Shown one piece after another: positions 1,826 to 30,657 of a DNA stretch of 30,667 bases (the first letter of the stretch is position 1; the number at the start of each line of letters is the position of its first letter). The translations under genes and the position numbers were made by a program. The notes beneath the pieces were generated by a model. That model worked only from the letters and a program-made list of their open reading frames with translations, was not told the origin of the DNA and did not search any database. This DNA is from a virus: IMG/VR virus record IMGVR_UViG_3300042478_003167, positions 1 through 30,667 of that record; one strand, written 5' to 3'.

Positions 1826-3775
1826 TTATTTGGCATCCGCCCAAGTCTTGCCAGAGGACACCTCAGCAACGATGGGCACATGGGTGCAGACCTCTGACCC
1901 CGCCGACTCCATCGACTCCTTTAGCACCGTTCCCCAGTGCTCAGCGCGATCCTCACGCACCTCGAGGACGATTTCATCGTGGACCATGGCGATCAATTTG
2001 GCCTCACCAGCCGGCGCCTGAACAACGTGGCGCCACAGCTTGTCAATCGCGATCTTGGCGATGTCACCTGCGGTGCCCTGCACCTGCGTGTTGATCCGCG
2101 TCGTGTACTTGTCGTTGAAGCCAACCAACATCCGCCGGCGCCCAATCGCGGTGTTCACCGCCTTCGTGGTCTTGGTGCCTTCGCTCTGCTGCCAGGCATA
2201 GAGCGTGGGGTACGCAGCTCTGAAGCCCTCGACGATCTGCCGCGCCTCGTCGAGTTCCATGTCGAGCCCGTACTGCGCGACTGCCTGCTTCTGCAACGTC
2301 GCCGGCCCCGCGCCATACAGCAACCCGAAATTGGCCACCTTCGCTGAGGTCCTGGCCTCCTTGGTGACGTCCTCGAGGGCGACACCGGTCATCAAAGCGG
2401 CGGTCTCGGTGTGCAGGTCACGCCCCGCCCTATACGCCTCTCGCATCTTCTCCTCCCCCGAGAGCTCAGCCGCCACTCGCAGCTCCACCTGGGAGAAGTC
2501 AGCCACAACGAGCACATAGCCGGCCTCGGCAACGAACTTGCTGCGAAAATCCTTGCCCCGATTGACCTGCTGAAGGTTGGGAGACGCTGCGCTGAGCCTC
2601 CCCGTCTCAGTCCCCATTTGCCTGTAATTGCAATGGATCCGGCCATCCGGCCCCACGGACTCCAGGAGCTTTTCAATGTTCGAAACCTTGGTGACCGCTG
2701 TCTTCCAGTTCAGGTATTGATCGATCAGCTCATAGTCCTTGCGCAGGAACGCCAACAGGTTCTGATCCAGGCTCGGGGCGCCCTTCTCATCCGGGGGTAG
2801 CAGGATGCCCGCCTGCTCAAAGCGCTCGGCCATCTGCTTCGGCGAGCGCGGGTTGAAGCCCTTGTAGACCTTGGTTCCCAGCCGCTTCGAACCGGAATCC
2901 TTCTCCCTGGTGTTGACGCTGCCATCAGGATCACGCGGCAGCCACGAGTGCGGATCATCCGGCAGGTTCGCCCGGATCTCCTTGTCGAGGTGCTCCAGAA
3001 ACAGGGTTTTCAGAGCCTCAGCCTCCTGGGTCAGCGACAGCCGCAGGTCCTCTGCCCCAGGCTTGTCGAAGCCAAACCCGTGCCACTGCATCGTTGCGAT
3101 GGGCCGGAGCACCCGCATCTCCAGCAGAAACAGATCCCAGAGCGTGAAGTTCGCCCGAATCCGCTGACTCCTGAGGCTCTCCGCCAACTCATCCGCCAGG
3201 AACGGCAAGCAGATCACGTCACGCGCCGCGTACTCGACCATCTCGCTGGTGATCTCGCCGGACCAATCCGCCTTCTGCAGCTCCTTGGCCAAGGGCAGCT
3301 TGAGCACCCGGTCCACCAATGAGCCGAGGTCGTTCTTGGCCCCGGTCCCGTTATTGATGATCTTCGCGGCAATCATGGTGTCAAACAGCACACCACCGAG
3401 GACGATGTTCTCTCCTCGCAAGAAATTCAGATCAAACGCAGCGTTCTGCAAGACCTTTCGGTTAGGCCCTTCCAATAAATCTCTGAGCTCACGTAACCCA
3501 GGTGAATCCCACGGCACACTCCTCTCGCCCTCGGCGCGCCAACCGTCGAGGTCAACAATCAGTGCAAAATCTTTAGTCCCAACCTGAATTAGCCGCACCT
3601 GATTCGTCAGCGGATCAAGGCCGGTCGTTTCCGTGTCAACGCCAAGAAACCCGTCTACAGCTGCGATCTCAGCGATACGACGTTGTAATAGGCCCACCTG
3701 ATGGGGACCCTGAACAAAGTCGAAATCCAGACGTGTCAGGGCATCAACCCTTTCCTGTGTTTTTAGGGATGGCAT
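1826..3775 (-). CDS. Family A DNA polymerase with 3'-5' exonuclease
   Basis: Phage replicative DNA polymerase of 649 aa. The N-terminal DnaQ-like proofreading domain shows Exo I DTETTGL (47-53), Exo II in NAAFDLNF (Asp115) and Exo III EYAARDV (181-187). The polymerase domain shows motif A DFSQVELR (Asp426), motif B RTSAKVANFGLLYG (Lys479, Phe483, Tyr487) and motif C MVHDEIVLE (His599-Asp600). There is no N-terminal 5'-3' exonuclease domain, as is usual for phage Pol I-like enzymes. The residue equivalent to E. coli Phe762 is Phe. It is read on the minus strand together with the primase-helicase and followed by two small genes. The start ATG at 3775 is the only good candidate and is divergent from the small plus-strand gene at 3799. 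Confidence 0.95.
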   Translation of the reverse strand: MPSLKTQERVDALTRLDFDFVQGPHQVGLLQRRIAEIAAVDGFLGVDTETTGLDPLTNQVRLIQVGTKDFALIVDLDGWRAEGERSVPWDSPGLRELRDLLEGPNRKVLQNAAFDLNFLRGENIVLGGVLFDTMIAAKIINNGTGAKNDLGSLVDRVLKLPLAKELQKADWSGEITSEMVEYAARDVICLPFLADELAESLRSQRIRANFTLWDLFLLEMRVLRPIATMQWHGFGFDKPGAEDLRLSLTQEAEALKTLFLEHLDKEIRANLPDDPHSWLPRDPDGSVNTREKDSGSKRLGTKVYKGFNPRSPKQMAERFEQAGILLPPDEKGAPSLDQNLLAFLRKDYELIDQYLNWKTAVTKVSNIEKLLESVGPDGRIHCNYRQMGTETGRLSAASPNLQQVNRGKDFRSKFVAEAGYVLVVADFSQVELRVAAELSGEEKMREAYRAGRDLHTETAALMTGVALEDVTKEARTSAKVANFGLLYGAGPATLQKQAVAQYGLDMELDEARQIVEGFRAAYPTLYAWQQSEGTKTTKAVNTAIGRRRMLVGFNDKYTTRINTQVQGTAGDIAKIAIDKLWRHVVQAPAGEAKLIAMVHDEIVLEVREDRAEHWGTVLKESMESAGSEVCTHVPIVAEVSSGKTWADAK

Positions 3776-8008: not shown

Positions 8009-8722
8009 ATGGCTCAGCCTCGACTGGAACGGGAAGTCGATCCCCTCACCCAGTTCGAGGGAGGCGTCCAGACCTTCGCCCTGCTGTTCACCCGCTGGAT
8101 GGACACCAACGGCTGGTCACACCCAACGATGGTGACCCTGGCCAAAGCTTGCCTCGGCGGAACCGGCTGGCTCCACAGCAGCCAGATCAGCGGCCTCCGC
8201 CACGGGCGCCTCCTCAGCCCCGGCCCCCGGACCTTCATCGCTGTCGAGCGGCTCAACTTCTATATCCACCGCTACGCCACCACGAAAAAACTGCTCCCGG
8301 GCACCCCGGGCAGCAACCTCTACGCCAAGGCGTTCGCCATCACCGAGAACGACAAACCGCCCGAGCTCGGCTGGTGGGTCGAAGTCTTCTGCGGCCAACG
8401 CATCCCCCAGGACATCGACCTCCGTCAGACCTTCTTCACTGACGACCAAGCCACCAAGATCTCCAGCAGCTGGGGCGGGATGATCCGGAAGCTGATGATC
8501 CAGAAGGACATGGACATCATCGTTGAACTGGACCGGGTGCTCCGCGAGAGCTACCCCGCCAAGGATGCTGAACGTCTAAGCCGCGTCGCCAGCGTCATCC
8601 AGAACCGTGAGACCTGGAGCGCCCAGGAACTGGTGAACGAGCTCCCCGCCATCAGCAACCTCACCGCGAGCCTGGGCGGCCCCAAAACCGAGAGCGACCT
8701 GCTCCGCGCCCTCAAAGACTGA
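8009..8722 (+). CDS. Putative DNA-binding regulator, 237 aa
   Basis: Divergent from the primase gene across an operator-like palindrome cluster. ATG 8009 was preferred to GTG 7988. Residues about 15-75 (HPTMVTLAKACLG, then SSQISGLRHGRL) look like a helix-turn-helix of XRE style, in which a scaffold helix is followed by a recognition-type S-x-I-S-x-L-R. The remainder is helical with no recognised catalytic motif. The position suggests an early regulator of the phage; the family is not certain. Confidence 0.55.
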   Translation: MAQPRLEREVDPLTQFEGGVQTFALLFTRWMDTNGWSHPTMVTLAKACLGGTGWLHSSQISGLRHGRLLSPGPRTFIAVERLNFYIHRYATTKKLLPGTPGSNLYAKAFAITENDKPPELGWWVEVFCGQRIPQDIDLRQTFFTDDQATKISSSWGGMIRKLMIQKDMDIIVELDRVLRESYPAKDAERLSRVASVIQNRETWSAQELVNELPAISNLTASLGGPKTESDLLRALKD

Positions 8723-12297: not shown

Positions 12298-12921
12298 ATG
12301 CCCGCCGAGTTCGTCCACTGCACCCCCGACGCCGAGCGCCTCATTGTCAAGATGGCCCGCGTCAGCAACCCCGACAACGCCGACAACTGGGACACCGGAC
12401 CCAAGCTGCTGCGCTACCTCATCGCGCACCGCCACTGGTCCCCCTTCGAGATGGCCTCGCTCTGCCTCCGCCTCGAAACCGAGCGCGACATCGCGGCCCA
12501 ACTCCTGCGCCACCGCAGCTTCTCCTTCCAGGAGTACTCAACCCGCTACGCCCGCACCACCCTGGCCGAGTGCCCGCCCCAGCGTCTCCAAGACACCACC
12601 AACCGTCAAAACAGCCTGGACACCATCCCCTTCGCGATGAAGTCCTACTGGGACCTTCGTCTCGGCCGCGTCATCGGTGACGCCTTCCTCCTCTACGAAG
12701 ACATGCTCACCGAGGGCGTCGCCAAAGAAACCGCCCGCCGCATCCTGCCGCTCTGCACCCCCACCACGCTGTACATGCACGGCACGCTGCGCAGCTGGAT
12801 CCACTACATCGACGTCCGTTGCGACCCCGGCACCCAACTCGAACACCGCGAGCTCGCCACAGAGTGCAAAGCAATTTTTACTACCCAATTCCCCACCATC
12901 GCTGAAGCGGCTTGGCCATAG
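12298..12921 (+). CDS. thyX: Flavin-dependent thymidylate synthase ThyX
   Basis: 207 aa. It makes dTMP from dUMP with methylene-tetrahydrofolate, FAD and NADPH. The ThyX signature RHRX7S is intact: Arg71-His72-Arg73 and Ser81 in RHRSFSFQEYSTRYA. The N-terminal HRHWSPFEMASL segment (folate/FAD site) and a C-terminal TLYMHGTLRSWIHYIDVR followed by QLEHRELA (dUMP-binding Arg region) are also present. It is the last gene of the nucleotide cluster. A structured intergenic element starts 8 bp after its stop. Confidence 0.93.
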   Translation: MPAEFVHCTPDAERLIVKMARVSNPDNADNWDTGPKLLRYLIAHRHWSPFEMASLCLRLETERDIAAQLLRHRSFSFQEYSTRYARTTLAECPPQRLQDTTNRQNSLDTIPFAMKSYWDLRLGRVIGDAFLLYEDMLTEGVAKETARRILPLCTPTTLYMHGTLRSWIHYIDVRCDPGTQLEHRELATECKAIFTTQFPTIAEAAWP

Positions 12922-12929
12922 CACCAAGC

Positions 12930-13051
12930 TCTGGGCCTCCTTTTTAGGTGTAAGTCCCTGGTTTTGCGGCACCCTGCATCGCCTTGCAGCGCGGCGCACG
13001 GCCCCGCACAGCGGTGCGCCGCAAAGCACAGCTCCCCGCACCGAGTCGGGG
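12930..13051 (+). other. Structured intergenic element, copy 1
   Basis: A spacer between thyX and the 13082 gene. It contains the block AGGTGTAAGTCCC (12946-12958), a CTGCA/TGCAG hairpin (12974-12989) and a 9-bp stem GCGGCGCAC (12991-12999) with GTGCGCCGC (13014-13022). It ends in TCCCCG-CACCGAGT-CGGGGA (13033-13052). A competing 8-bp helix TTTGCGGC (12963-12970) with GCCGCAAA (13018-13025) would exclude the 9-bp stem. The AGGTGTAAGTCCC block and the CACCGAGT loop recur in copy 2, and the loop also in copy 3. No long U-tract follows. Confidence 0.6.
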
Positions 13052-13081
13052 ACCCCAACCCCTACGAGGAACTCACCATCA

Positions 13082-13750
13082 ATGGCTTTTCTCCGCTATT
13101 CAGTAGAGCTAACAGGCACAGCACCTTTGCTCTGCTCTAACAATTGCACAATCGATCAACTCGGCACTCCAGCTGACATCCTTGGCTGGTACCACAAGAT
13201 CCCGCAGAAGAAGCGAGAGCTCCGCGTAGAGCGTTCAATGCGCAACTTTCATTGGCTTTTCAGCGGCTACTGGAAACACGAAGGTGCGGTCCAGCACCCT
13301 TCAGAGACAGATGGCTGCGATGTTTTCGAGAACTACGCTGATCCGATTCTTCCCGCTCCCAACTTGCAGCGCTGTTTGCGTGATGCTGCAACGGCGTGGA
13401 AGCTTGGTAAAGACGTCTCACGCTCCACAATCGTGGAGAACGACTCCCCAATTACATACAACGGCCCGCGAGAAGCCCGCGCCATGCTCAAAGATGGGCG
13501 TTTCTACAGTTGCCGCCCTAATGGCAGAGGGAACATGGCTATCCGCGTCATGTTCCCTGAATGGAGCGTCCGCTTCCGCGTGCTGATTAACGACGAAATC
13601 ATGGGAGAACGGGATTTTGTCAAGATTCTTGATCGCGCAGGAGTAGCTGAAGGCTTGGGAGCCTGGCGCCCTGGCAGCCCTAAGGGCGGGCGTTTCGGCC
13701 GCTTTTCTGTTACTGATTTCACCCCGCTCTCATTTGAGGAGGCCGAGTGA
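13082..13750 (+). CDS. Conserved phage protein of unknown function, 222 aa
   Basis: Starts at ATG 13082 with a GAGGA-like ribosome-binding site. It opens with VELTGTAPLLCSNN and later has ITYNGPREA, a SCRPN-type strand, VMFPEWSVRFRV and AEGLGAWRPGSPKGGRFGRF. This order of segments belongs to a phage family I have seen in unrelated siphophages, without known function. The base composition is clearly less GC-rich than its neighbours, with third positions often A or T, so it looks like a recent arrival. It overlaps the next gene by 1 bp. A structured element precedes the pair and two more follow. Confidence 0.7.
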   Translation: MAFLRYSVELTGTAPLLCSNNCTIDQLGTPADILGWYHKIPQKKRELRVERSMRNFHWLFSGYWKHEGAVQHPSETDGCDVFENYADPILPAPNLQRCLRDAATAWKLGKDVSRSTIVENDSPITYNGPREARAMLKDGRFYSCRPNGRGNMAIRVMFPEWSVRFRVLINDEIMGERDFVKILDRAGVAEGLGAWRPGSPKGGRFGRFSVTDFTPLSFEEAE

Positions 13751-14256
13751 TGGAAACTCATAACGCCACAATTGACTACATCAACCTGCGCAAAGGAGAC
13801 CGCATCGAGGCCGACGTCGTTTGGAACTTCTACGCTTTGCTCAAACCCGAGGTTTATCAGAACTGGATCGACGAGCACGGCAACGAAGATCTAGCCAAAG
13901 CGGCACACATGCCCCAAACTCTCGTCCGAGTTCGCGACTGGATCGACGCACGCCGTAACGCACTGGACCTTCCCCCTCTCGTTATCAACACTAAAAACAC
14001 CGGGCTCAATGTTCTCAACGACGAAGAGGCCAGTCGTTACCTCTCCGACCGTGCTTTCGCCGGTCTGCGCCAGCACGCCAAGAACACCGGCAGACTGATC
14101 GCAGCGGTTGACGAGACACAGCTCAGCTCTGCCGCGTTGCGTGAACACGAAAGCCGATTGCGTACACATAGCTTCGTTCTTGCTTCCACCCATGGGGCCC
14201 AGACGATGCTTCGCAAGCTGCGCCGGGAGGGCAGAGAGGCTCCCAAGCTGAAGTAA
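13750..14256 (+). CDS. Hypothetical protein, 168 aa, cassette partner
   Basis: ATG 13750 shares a base with the stop of the previous gene (TGATG), so the two are coupled. The protein is helical and charged, with a KPEVYQNWIDEHGNEDLAKA segment and a basic end (MLRKLRREGREAPKLK). It shares the lower GC of its partner. No domain is recognised. It is followed 1 bp after the stop by copy 2 of the structured element. Confidence 0.65.
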   Translation: METHNATIDYINLRKGDRIEADVVWNFYALLKPEVYQNWIDEHGNEDLAKAAHMPQTLVRVRDWIDARRNALDLPPLVINTKNTGLNVLNDEEASRYLSDRAFAGLRQHAKNTGRLIAAVDETQLSSAALREHESRLRTHSFVLASTHGAQTMLRKLRREGREAPKLK

Positions 14257-14257
14257 T

Positions 14258-14369
14258 CCCTGGGCTTCCTTCCGAGGTGTAAGTCCCAGGGCCGCCGCAT
14301 TGCTCCGCGTCGCATCGCACCGCGCCACTTCGCCCCGCAAAGCCTAGGCCCCCACACCGAGTTGAGGGC
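14258..14369 (+). other. Structured intergenic element, copy 2
   Basis: Begins one base after a stop codon with CCCTGGG (14258-14264) pairing to CCCAGGG (14285-14291); the loop holds the shared AGGTGTAAGT stretch. A GC-rich middle follows. The end is GCCCCCA-CACCGAGT-TGAGGGC (14348-14369), a 7-bp stem with one C-A mismatch. The 8-nt loop is identical to copies 1 and 3 while the stem sequence differs. Confidence 0.6.
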
Positions 14370-14398
14370 ACCAACCCAACACAGAGTCCCGGCTCTCT

Positions 14399-14498
14399 GG
14401 TGGGTTGACCTACCACCGCCGCCGTGCATCGCATCGCTCACCTCCGCAACCCACCGCCGTGCTCCGCAGCGCAACGACCTCTGCACCGAGTCAGAGGT
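14399..14498 (+). other. Structured intergenic element, copy 3 (partial)
   Basis: Starts with GGTGG/CCACC (14399-14417), lacks the AGGTGTAAGTCCC block and ends with ACCTCTG-CACCGAGT-CAGAGGT (14477-14498), a perfect 7-bp stem. ATG 14517 follows 18 bp after the stem. It sits directly behind copy 2, so the two form a 240-bp array. Confidence 0.6.
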
Positions 14499-14516: not shown

Positions 14517-14864
14517 ATGACTCAACCCTTACGCATCACAATCGAGTCAACCGCCGATGGATATCTGCGGTGGGAGATGGTTTGCGGTCCGGACGGAAAG
14601 CTCCATTTCGCAGGCACGTCGCCGCTGCTCGAAAGATGTTTTGAGGATTTGATCAGAGCCCAATGGACCCTCGCCGACCACCTCACAGCTGACCCGGACC
14701 CCGAGCCCGACTGGCTGCCTGACCCACCCGCGCACCAGACGCCCATCCCCGAGGTCCATCCGACCGCTGGCGCTGCGCTCCCCGTGCAACAGGACATCCC
14801 AGCCGGCGGCCATCTAACTAAACCTTCCGAACTTTTTTACCCTCACCCATCCAGTTCTGGTTGA
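14517..14864 (+). CDS. Hypothetical protein, 115 aa
   Basis: ATG 14517 was chosen because the open frame upstream runs through element copy 3. The N-terminal 60 residues alternate strand and helix (LRITIESTADGYLRWEMVCG). The C-terminal half is Pro/Asp-rich and probably unstructured (DPDPEPDWLPDPPAHQ). No family is recognised. It is followed 10 bp later by the sigma factor gene. Confidence 0.55.
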   Translation: MTQPLRITIESTADGYLRWEMVCGPDGKLHFAGTSPLLERCFEDLIRAQWTLADHLTADPDPEPDWLPDPPAHQTPIPEVHPTAGAALPVQQDIPAGGHLTKPSELFYPHPSSSG

Positions 14865-19945: not shown

Positions 19946-20145
19946 CCTACTGCCCTGACCCCCGCACCCTCGATCCCCCGGACGAGCTCCCCTGCTCCCC
20001 ACCTCACCCCGTCTGGCACTTCCTCTCCGACGACTTGGAGCACGAGCACTGGGTCGACGACCCCACCGAGGTCGACGACTACCTCGCCGCCTACGCCGAG
20101 CGCGGCGCTCCCTTCACCCTGCGCCAGCTCCTCATCGAGGACTGA
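19942..20145 (+). CDS. Hypothetical acidic protein, 67 aa
   Basis: ATGA-coupled to the membrane protein gene. Rich in Asp, Glu and Pro, with a short helix (DDYLAAYAERG). Not recognised. Confidence 0.5.
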   Translation: MTYCPDPRTLDPPDELPCSPPHPVWHFLSDDLEHEHWVDDPTEVDDYLAAYAERGAPFTLRQLLIED

Positions 20146-24953: not shown

Positions 24954-25288
24954 CCCTCGCCCCCACCAGCGACTTCCTGGGCACGCAGCCCGACCGCATC
25001 GAGCACGACTTCTGGGCGTTCCACGTTTCCAACCCTCGCGTCTACGAAGAGCTCCGGAACCACGCCCTGGAGCTCCGCCGCCGAGGTCGCAGCCATTACG
25101 GCATCAAAGCCCTGTTCGAGGTCGTCCGCTTCCACCGCGCCCTCCAAACGCAGGACAAGTGCTCCGAGTGGAAGCTCAACAACAACTACACCGCGCTCTA
25201 CGCCCGCATGCTCATGGCGAACGAGCCAGAGCTCCGCGACTTCTTCCGCACCCGAGTGCGCCGCGCCTCCTACACCCGAGTGCGATGA
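24950..25288 (+). CDS. Conserved phage protein, 112 aa
   Basis: The pattern FHVSNPRVYEELRNHALELR, HYGIKALFEVVRFH, WKLNNNYTALYARMLMANEP and LRDFFRTR belongs to a family common in tailed phages and prophages, with no established function. Basic and helical; nucleic-acid binding is possible. ATGA-coupled on both sides. Confidence 0.7.
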   Translation: MTLAPTSDFLGTQPDRIEHDFWAFHVSNPRVYEELRNHALELRRRGRSHYGIKALFEVVRFHRALQTQDKCSEWKLNNNYTALYARMLMANEPELRDFFRTRVRRASYTRVR

Positions 25289-28824: not shown

Positions 28825-30657
28825 GTGGCCAACGCAGCTACTGAAGAGTTCCGGAACGACGGGGCACTCGTAAACATTCTCACTGGAATGGGAGTTCCTT
28901 CGAGAGACAAGACAGTTTCTACGGCTATAGGCGCAAAGGCTTTCCTTGGAGAAGCAGAACTTGAAGCTCTCTACAGCCACGGAATCCCTCGCCGCTACGT
29001 CGACGCCATCGGCGACGAGATCCTCCGGCACCACCCCACGATCACCCTCGGCACCGATGACGAGGCCAACGCCAACGATCTGATCGCCGGGTTCGAAGAG
29101 TTCCTGAAGGCGACGCAGTTTCACCACGCCCTGGCCGAGGTCGTCAAGCTCCAGCGTCTCTACGGTGGCGCCGGCCTGGTCCTGCTGATCGACGACGGCC
29201 TTGACCCAGCCGAGCCTGTCGAGCCTGAGCGCATCCGCGCCATCCGTGGCTACGTGCCCCTATCCCGTCACGAGCTGATCCCCGAGGACTTCTCGATCAC
29301 CGATTACTCGAAGCCCTCGCACTACCGGATCACCACCAGCCAGCGCCTGACCCCCGACCAGCAGGGCTCCTACGTCAACGTCCGCATCCACAGCAGCCGG
29401 ATCGCCCGCTTCGACGGCCTGTACCTGCCCTGGAACGTCCGCGTCCGCAACACCGGCTGGGGCCAATCCGTCCTCCAGCTGATCTGGGAGGCGTACAAGC
29501 GCTACGAGTCGGCAATGGCCGGCCTGGAGTCGATGACGACGGACGCCGACCTGTTCGTCCACAAGATCCCCGGTCTGTTCCAGCGCATCGCTTCCGGCAA
29601 CGAGGGCGATCTGCGCAAACGCCTCGAAGCCAACAGCCTCAGCCGCTCCGTCTACGGCGGCATGGTCGTCGACGTGGAAGAGGACCTGCAGTTCCTCAAC
29701 CGCGCCCTGAGCAACATCGCCTCCGCCACGGATCCCTTCATCAAGGACCTCCAAGCCGCCACTGGCTGGCCGGCCTCGATCCTGATGGGCGACTCCCCCG
29801 GTGGCCTCGGCAAAGAGGGTCGCTTCGAGGAGCGGGTCTGGGCCTCCCTGGTCGAGCAGTGGCAGGAGGTCTACTGCCGCACCCCGATCACCGAAGTCTT
29901 CCAGTACATCTTCCTCTCCAAGGAAGGTCCCACCCGAGGCCGTGCCCCGCGTTCCTGGACGGTCCACTTCCCCAACGTCTTCACGCAGACCGAAGCCGAG
30001 GACGCCGCCCTGCGCCTGCAAATGGCCCAGGTCGACGCCCAGTACATCAACCTCGGTGTGCTGAACCCGCTGGAAGTGCGCGAAGCCCGTTTCGGCGGTA
30101 CCGAATACACCCTGGAGACGACGCTCAACCCGGCGGTCACCGAGCAGCTGATCGCGACCACGGACGCCCAGTTCCAGAGCCAGATGATGGGCTACGAGGC
30201 GCAGGCTCAGGCCGCTCTCGTCCCGCCCGAGCAGCCCGCTGCTGAACAGGAAGACCCCGAAGAACCCGAGGACGACGCCCCGCAACCCAGCCCAACCGCC
30301 AAGACCGACGCCTTCGACCGCTACGAAGCCCAGGGCCTACGTATCCACGTAACGCACCGCAGCGGTGACATCCGCGCTGGTTACCTCGTCGGTCCCGATG
30401 GCCAGCGCACCGATGCCAGCAGCTCGGCCCCGCTGATGATCTTCGGGCCCAATCGCACCCGGGCCTACAAGCTCTACCGAGCCCGCTTCGCCTGCGACGG
30501 CGCCCTCGTCGACGGGCCCTACGCCACCGGCTTCGCCTCAATGCGCGCCGCCCGCAGCGCCGTGGCGACTTTCTTCCCTCGGCAGACTGTGGCAGGGCTC
30601 TCCCCTGTCCCCGAGGGCGAACTCGAAGCACTTCGTGCCGGTTGGGAGGCGTACTGA
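28825..30657 (+). CDS. Phage portal protein (DUF1073-type)
   Basis: 610 aa; GTG 28825. The portal core is recognised by LQRLYGGAGLVLLIDD, RVRNTGWGQSVLQLIWEAYK, AIGDEILRHH, MVVDVEEDLQFLNRALSNIA and ATGWPASILMGDSPGGLGKE, the DUF1073 portal segments. It forms the dodecameric channel at one prohead vertex. A Pro/Glu-rich linker (about 470-500) leads to an extra C-terminal domain (about 505-600) that ordinary portals lack. The first 150 bp have an AT-richer codon use than the rest, switching near 28985. It follows the terminase as expected and overlaps the next gene by 1 bp. Confidence 0.88.
   Translation: MANAATEEFRNDGALVNILTGMGVPSRDKTVSTAIGAKAFLGEAELEALYSHGIPRRYVDAIGDEILRHHPTITLGTDDEANANDLIAGFEEFLKATQFHHALAEVVKLQRLYGGAGLVLLIDDGLDPAEPVEPERIRAIRGYVPLSRHELIPEDFSITDYSKPSHYRITTSQRLTPDQQGSYVNVRIHSSRIARFDGLYLPWNVRVRNTGWGQSVLQLIWEAYKRYESAMAGLESMTTDADLFVHKIPGLFQRIASGNEGDLRKRLEANSLSRSVYGGMVVDVEEDLQFLNRALSNIASATDPFIKDLQAATGWPASILMGDSPGGLGKEGRFEERVWASLVEQWQEVYCRTPITEVFQYIFLSKEGPTRGRAPRSWTVHFPNVFTQTEAEDAALRLQMAQVDAQYINLGVLNPLEVREARFGGTEYTLETTLNPAVTEQLIATTDAQFQSQMMGYEAQAQAALVPPEQPAAEQEDPEEPEDDAPQPSPTAKTDAFDRYEAQGLRIHVTHRSGDIRAGYLVGPDGQRTDASSSAPLMIFGPNRTRAYKLYRARFACDGALVDGPYATGFASMRAARSAVATFFPRQTVAGLSPVPEGELEALRAGWEAY

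Follow-up and report, generated by a model that had tools for sequence, protein, structure and literature searches.

The window analysed here is a 30,667-nucleotide stretch of viral DNA (positions 1 to 30,667 of IMG/VR record IMGVR_UViG_3300042478_003167), and the features described below all lie on its plus strand. A thyX (Thy1) gene (12298..12921; Pfam PF02511, E 3.6e-43) is followed by a hairpin containing AGGTGTAAGTCCC, which we call motif-1 (copy a, 12929..12961; 39.1 bits with model R1; 11 nt from the thyX stop to its GGG), a tract of 12 NN-Y-G-C pentamers (12963..13022) and a hairpin with the loop CACCGAGT (13033..13052). Two genes come next (13082..13750 and 13747..14256), the second overlapping the stop codon of the first. 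Downstream of them are another motif-1 hairpin (copy b, 14258..14291; 43.9 bits; 5 nt from stop to GGG), a tract of 9 pentamers (14294..14338), a second CACCGAGT hairpin (14348..14369), an inverted repeat read from the sequence (14372..14407), a tract of 11 pentamers (14418..14472), a third CACCGAGT hairpin (14477..14498) and the next gene (14517..14864). The inverted repeat occupies the place where a copy of motif-1 might have been expected.

We found a sister record of 70.8 kb (IMGVR_UViG_3300044645_002754), in which window position 20000 maps to 66917 and position 25000 to 1057. Because the window runs across the ends of the sister record, that record probably represents a near-complete genome in circularly permuted form. 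The sigma factor gene has nucleotide similarity to S-CBS1, S-CBS3 and S-LBS1, and thyX to S-CRES3, and these resemblances suggest that the virus is a cyanophage.

A first-pass annotation of this DNA had described the three CACCGAGT hairpins, and all of them were located where it had placed them. The window holds seven occurrences of CACCGAGT, compared with 0.94 expected and a number reached in none of 100 shuffles; three of the seven lie between complementary arms. In all three copies the loop is identical and the arms differ. The arms are complementary as described; copies 1 and 3 form perfect stems of 6 bp and 7 bp, respectively, and copy 2 has one C-A mismatch. The hairpin is the minimum-energy structure in copy 1 (z -1.82, 7 of 200 shuffles as good) and copy 3 (z -1.00, 34 of 200), but not in the copy 2 stretch (z 0.10, 106 of 200). 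Two further hairpins of this kind, with loops CACTGAGT and CACAGAGA, are present on contig L129. Over the five sequences, few as they are, double-sided changes occurred at 5 of the 7 stem pairs, compared with 1.4 in shuffles, and this was reached in 1 of 500 shuffles. The selection on an RNA fold that the first-pass annotation had read from the stems is borne out, and the invariant loop and covarying stem together give a structured element in which copy 2 is the weak member. A pattern built from copies 1 and 2 and the L129 hairpins, which would miss hairpins like copy 3, matched four viral contigs: three near-identical ones of the window type, and L129.

The first-pass annotation had also noted AGGTGTAAGTCCC upstream of copies 1 and 2, in the loop of a further hairpin. 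It is present twice as described, but forms the 3' half and the internal loop of a hairpin of its own, not an apical loop. Two elements had been merged in that description: the CACCGAGT hairpin, the pattern for which occurs in window-type contigs and L129 only, and motif-1, which occurs in many phages. Each has relatives beyond the window. No part of the window matched an Rfam 15 family at the gathering score, and neither element belongs to a family above threshold.

A pentamer tract stands in front of each CACCGAGT hairpin. Among the 32 units, position 5 is C in every one, position 4 is G in 28 and position 3 is C or T in 29. The tracts were recovered with no motif supplied, by scanning 60-nt stretches for period-5 information: the three tract places ranked first in the window, and in the sister record exactly these three tracts ranked first to third (3.83, 3.50 and 3.40; the next place scored 2.92). 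Two competing helices had been reported at copy 1; they lie within or adjoining the (NNYGC)n tract, where inverted repeats arise easily. An early idea that the units were TRAP-like repeats was replaced by the comparison with VIPR. This system, which was published in 2026 as a possible precursor of CRISPR, comprises the Vipr protein, a vap gene and guide RNAs termed vrRNAs; each vrRNA carries 9-16 YNNGG repeats and ends in a structured 3' tail. The vrRNAs are described as reading DNA as NNxNNxNN, skipping one nucleotide (PMC13142463). The 12, 9 and 11 tandem units of the window, with a fixed triplet and a variable NN, fall within this range. When the first 50 kb of Escherichia phage SUSP1, a phage with VIPR, was scanned for period 5, the top places were the gaps that flank its vipr-vap pair.

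The product of 13082..13750 belongs to phrog_4652. A profile of 15 homologues matched the chain annotated as "SUSP1 Vipr protein" in the PDB (36pp_D) with an E value of 3.3e-40, and the window protein alone matched it at 2.3e-11. An AlphaFold2 model of the protein (pLDDT 84.8, pTM 0.81), used as a Foldseek query, retrieved CRISPR RAMP chains first, mostly Csm (23 matches with E ≤ 0.001, TM approximately 0.35-0.46). By profile match and predicted fold, we assign this gene as vipr, encoding a minimal RAMP protein of an ancestral CRISPR type. The predicted fold is shared with the Csm3/Cas7 RAMPs of type III CRISPR-Cas, in which the guide is contiguous, whereas in VIPR it is read with skips; neither a CRISPR array nor another cas gene was noticed in passing. 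The second gene (13747..14256) is a candidate vap. It has 29% identity to a gene of contig L034, which together with its near copy L102 shares the plan of the window (motif-1, vipr, second gene, motif-1). Comparison with SUSP1 vap1 by hhalign was not significant (E 0.39), and no PDB fold match was found at E ≤ 0.001.

Because the pentamer tracts end in hairpins and 13082..13750 encodes a Vipr protein, the region is very probably a phage-borne VIPR locus with three vrRNAs, of which the CACCGAGT hairpins are the 3' tails. Such a locus would consist of vipr and the candidate vap, with vrRNA1 upstream and vrRNA2 and vrRNA3 downstream. Each tract would be transcribed as a vrRNA of 9-12 pentamers, in which the free NN would serve as guide, the fixed (Y)GC would presumably be held by Vipr, and the hairpin would close the molecule. 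We propose that only the fold and the loop of the tail would matter, which would explain why the arms vary yet stay complementary. If the locus works as in SUSP1, Vipr would cover the tract and bind double-stranded DNA read as NNxNNxNN, thereby silencing the target.

As far as the SUSP1 system is described in the main text of the VIPR paper, the two loci share a RAMP-type Vipr of the same profile family, tracts before and after vipr-vap, a structured 3' tail and, in the window for vrRNA3, target reading with a 1-nt skip. They differ in that the window triplet is YGC rather than GGY, that its tail is a plain hairpin with the CACCGAGT loop rather than the pseudoknot of the SUSP1 clade, that motif-1 precedes vrRNA1 and vrRNA2, and that the targets of the window guide are orthologues of a neighbouring gene. 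The published code is given as GGY/NN "or a related consensus" (PMC13142463). Among the papers searched, this is the one in which Vipr and vrRNA occur together, and the word cyanophage is absent from it. Related GC-rich contigs have GGY; with YGC in its place, we file the window locus as a VIPR variant. The YGC consensus counts against the VIPR reading, as do the weak vrRNA2 tail, a vap that is not established, and the lack of targets for vrRNA1 and vrRNA2 described below.

Similar loci occur in S-LBS1/S-CBS-like contigs (L031, L037, L105, L126 and others), where a phrog_4652 gene also stands beside motif-1 and pentamer tracts; there the tracts are GGY/NN and the tails are longer, with multiple helices. 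We saw such longer tails after GGY tracts downstream of vipr in L031, L037, L049, L059, L089, L105, L126, L139 and L142; by eye, they seem to contain three adjacent helices with strands in common (CAC.GAG core). On L129, motif-1 is accompanied by two YGC tracts and two tails of the window type (8375-8600), yet the 39-kb record has no phrog_4652 match.

The first-pass annotation had interpreted the hairpins differently, as a possible translation switch in which GAGT of the loop pairs with ACTC near the next start codon. As cis-acting riboregulators, the hairpins would control translation of the next gene, and ACTC does occur close to the starts of genes 13082 and 14517, after copies 1 and 3. 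By eye, however, there is no ACTC partner for copy 2 or the L129 tails, so the pairing is not conserved. In addition, copy 2 precedes another tract rather than a gene, and this reading leaves the pentamer tracts and the Vipr gene unexplained. With the hairpins closing guide tracts beside a Vipr gene, we consider a riboregulatory role very improbable and retain the VIPR reading.

The suggestion that the hairpins bound a two-gene cassette was borne out by comparison with relatives. In loci L208 and L209, which have a ThyX 77% identical to that of the window, thyX runs directly into the 14517 orthologue, its stop codon overlapping the start of that gene; in the window, 1595 nt separate the two genes. 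The cassette of approximately 1.6 kb is therefore absent from this site in two relatives.

We searched for targets by decoding the tracts and comparing them with local loci (5.1 million positions on both strands, many of the loci overlapping), using skips of 0, 1 and 2. With a skip of 1, vrRNA3 matched 20 of 22 bases in L208 and L209, loci that had been fetched earlier through their ThyX. The matching site lies in the orthologue of gene 14517, the gene that adjoins vrRNA3. When the order of the units was shuffled, a score of 20 was reached in 1 of 150 cases; three other dinucleotide offsets also reached 20 of 22 at skip 1 in the local set. In a scan of viral sequences with 20 fixed bases and unit 8 free, 14 contigs matched, all of them in the 14517 orthologue, and in all 14 the skip falls on the third codon position; these contigs are related and not independent. 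In L301, where the gene order is DNMK, a distant thyX, the 14517 orthologue and a sigma factor, unit 8 matches as well, giving 22 of 22. The site in the window's own 14517 gene matches 17 of 22. The case for this target rests on its place, the codon phase and the L301 match, and vrRNA3 would be aimed at the 14517 orthologue in related phages. We did not find vipr in loci L301-L315, L208 and L209, which are flanks and not always whole contigs.

Skip-read targets in competing elements were found for vrRNA3 only. An 18-base pattern for vrRNA1 matched no contig in the viral scan, and one for vrRNA2 matched a single contig (L315), which is at chance level and has none of six tested window genes; neither guide has a convincing target. 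Before pattern-fetched loci were included, the best score of vrRNA2 in the local set was 15 of 18. We also compared 28 guides with 12 shuffles each, a count in which vrRNA2 and vrRNA3 are biased by L301-L315, fetched with guide patterns. None of the guides beat all of its shuffles at skip 0, six did at skip 1 and one at skip 2, and most had no outstanding match in this small local set. The pair of SUSP1 arrays had been left out of this count, as had the YGY arrays of L068 and L126, which were taken to be GGY tracts read on the other strand. The GGY guide of L031 matched 23 of 26 bases in terL of S-CBS1 and 22 of 26 in S-CBS3, and that of L139 matched 14 of 14 in terL of S-LBS1; by arithmetic from the annotated starts, the skipped base is at codon position 3 in these matches. 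The evidence from these GGY guides of related contigs is in line with that from vrRNA3. A guide of L037 matched 19 of 20 in its sibling L049, but also 18 of 20 in its own contig.

The two guides with no target, the poorly folding vrRNA2 tail, and the units that depart from the consensus (4 of 32 lack the G and 3 of 32 lack the Y) could also be explained if the VIPR locus had decayed and its tracts and tails were functionless remnants. The vipr frame is open, however, the tail loop is invariant while the arms covary, vrRNA3 matches another phage at 22 of 22, and off-consensus units are found in SUSP1 tracts too. We regard decay as very unlikely.

Motif-1 has an outer stem, an internal loop between GGCAN and UGUAAGUCC, and an inner stem whose loop is often GNRA, UNCG or a longer one. 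One of 78 aligned rows (L108) was dropped for having no stem pair, and ten others with fewer than 3 pairs were kept. In the remaining 77 sequences, 90.7% of pair cells were standard pairs, compared with 83.4% in shuffles, and 70 cells were doubly changed, compared with 29.0. Among 70 distinct sequences found with the model, seven pairs had double changes, compared with 3.2. The search patterns fixed GGGC, CC and GGTGNAAGTCC and left the outer stem free, so the conservation of these letters in alignment A1 proves nothing; the model-found copies (A2) vary at some of the fixed positions too. Motif-1 was found in many phages among the matches listed. Copies from L001, L022 and L035 matched nothing in Rfam at E ≤ 10, and the letters of the motif, as RNA or DNA, were not found in the literature searched. 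In 84,980 cellular genomes there were 15 scattered stretches, their stems unscored, which is below a rough chance estimate of approximately 45; one of these, L163, comes from a Halieaceae bin and by eye looks similar to L044 and L101.

The position of motif-1 is strict. Of 127 cases, 83 start 4-10 nt past the stop of a reading frame that is 50 codons or longer, and such a stop lay within 10 nt at 116 of 2540 random places. The stop itself varies (TAA 53, TGA 52 and TAG 9 of 114), and we rejected a stop-codon readthrough element for want of a fixed stop. A promoter-proximal 5' hairpin was also rejected, because the sequence taken for a -10 box overlaps an upstream frame's stop codon, as was a transcription terminator, since no T run was seen after the hairpins. 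The position after stop codons, and the hairpins flanking a cassette that is missing in two relatives, would fit attC-like or REP-like DNA hairpins that move the two genes. The apical loops of motif-1 are largely tetraloops of RNA type (GNRA, UNCG), and the tails close guide tracts, which makes DNA mobility the least probable of the readings we considered for the locus; the VIPR reading stands.

We found phrog_4652 in 14 of 49 records searched, and by coordinates it adjoins a copy of motif-1 in 12 of the 14; most of the 49 records (42) had been selected because they carry motif-1. S-EIV1 has two copies of motif-1 and no recognisable vipr, and none of its top 25 period-5 places is at those copies. 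It was the only one of seven named cyanophage records, searched whole, with motif-1. Motif-1 is therefore not a part of VIPR as such, although the VIPR loci here also use it. It is a separate hairpin family outside Rfam, found before vrRNA tracts here and before genes of S-EIV1-like cyanophages elsewhere. In the S-EIV1-like contigs G005, G008 and G011, 5-7 copies are clustered over a few kilobases, all on one strand. Across 20 S-EIV1-like stretches or records, an ATG lies 19-34 nt downstream of 63 of 66 copies, and the leader between motif-1 and the ATG is nearly free of G (72 G in 1631 nt).

These leaders would fit an RNA element that aids translation of the next gene, which lacks a Shine-Dalgarno sequence. 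In GC-rich VIPR phages, however, motif-1 precedes non-coding tracts, and the constraint common to both phage groups is the upstream stop codon. We therefore rank this possibility second, as doubtful, and weakly favour a role in RNA processing or in protecting mRNA ends, itself no better than tentative.

Taken together, one could picture the YGC/NN cassette as turning vrRNA3 on the orthologue of its own neighbour in cassette-free sibling phages: a weapon of one locus against another, which would give carriers an advantage in mixed infection, with its own copy spared by five mismatches. Motif-1, in addition, would be a new family of RNAs, apparently confined to viruses, with two uses: in front of guide-RNA tracts, and as a module between stop codon and leader at Shine-Dalgarno-less genes of S-EIV1-like cyanophages. 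We put this combined picture forward as speculative. A VIPR locus with a YGC triplet in a probable cyanophage probes the limits of variation in the code, and vrRNA3, its best guide, points to a specific gene of a rival. Motif-1 is a further RNA family, one outside Rfam, whose position after stops, and approximately 30 nt before the ATG in S-EIV1-like phages, is closely kept.

Several minor observations concern the surroundings of motif-1. In S-EIV1 (KJ410740), a second structure occupies the motif-1 slot upstream of the coding sequences at 29657, 32790, 36999 and 42715 and in the gap 39274-39728. By eye it is an H-type pseudoknot (GTC..AAGCA.GAC.TTAAAC.TGCTT) with changing stems, similar both to the SUSP1 vrRNA tail and to the ATCGT..GCCGG..ACGAT..CCGGC elements in L034, L137 and L141. 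Many minus-strand genes of S-EIV1 between approximately 24 and 44 kb have leaders that are nearly G-free and lack a Shine-Dalgarno sequence, unlike the plus-strand genes. In L053, L048, L056, L062, L074 and L078, motif-1 lies upstream of a gene similar to that for the S-CBWM1 major capsid protein; S-CBWM1 itself has no motif-1 match. On L083, motif-1 (3446-3483) stands directly before an apparent tRNA gene.
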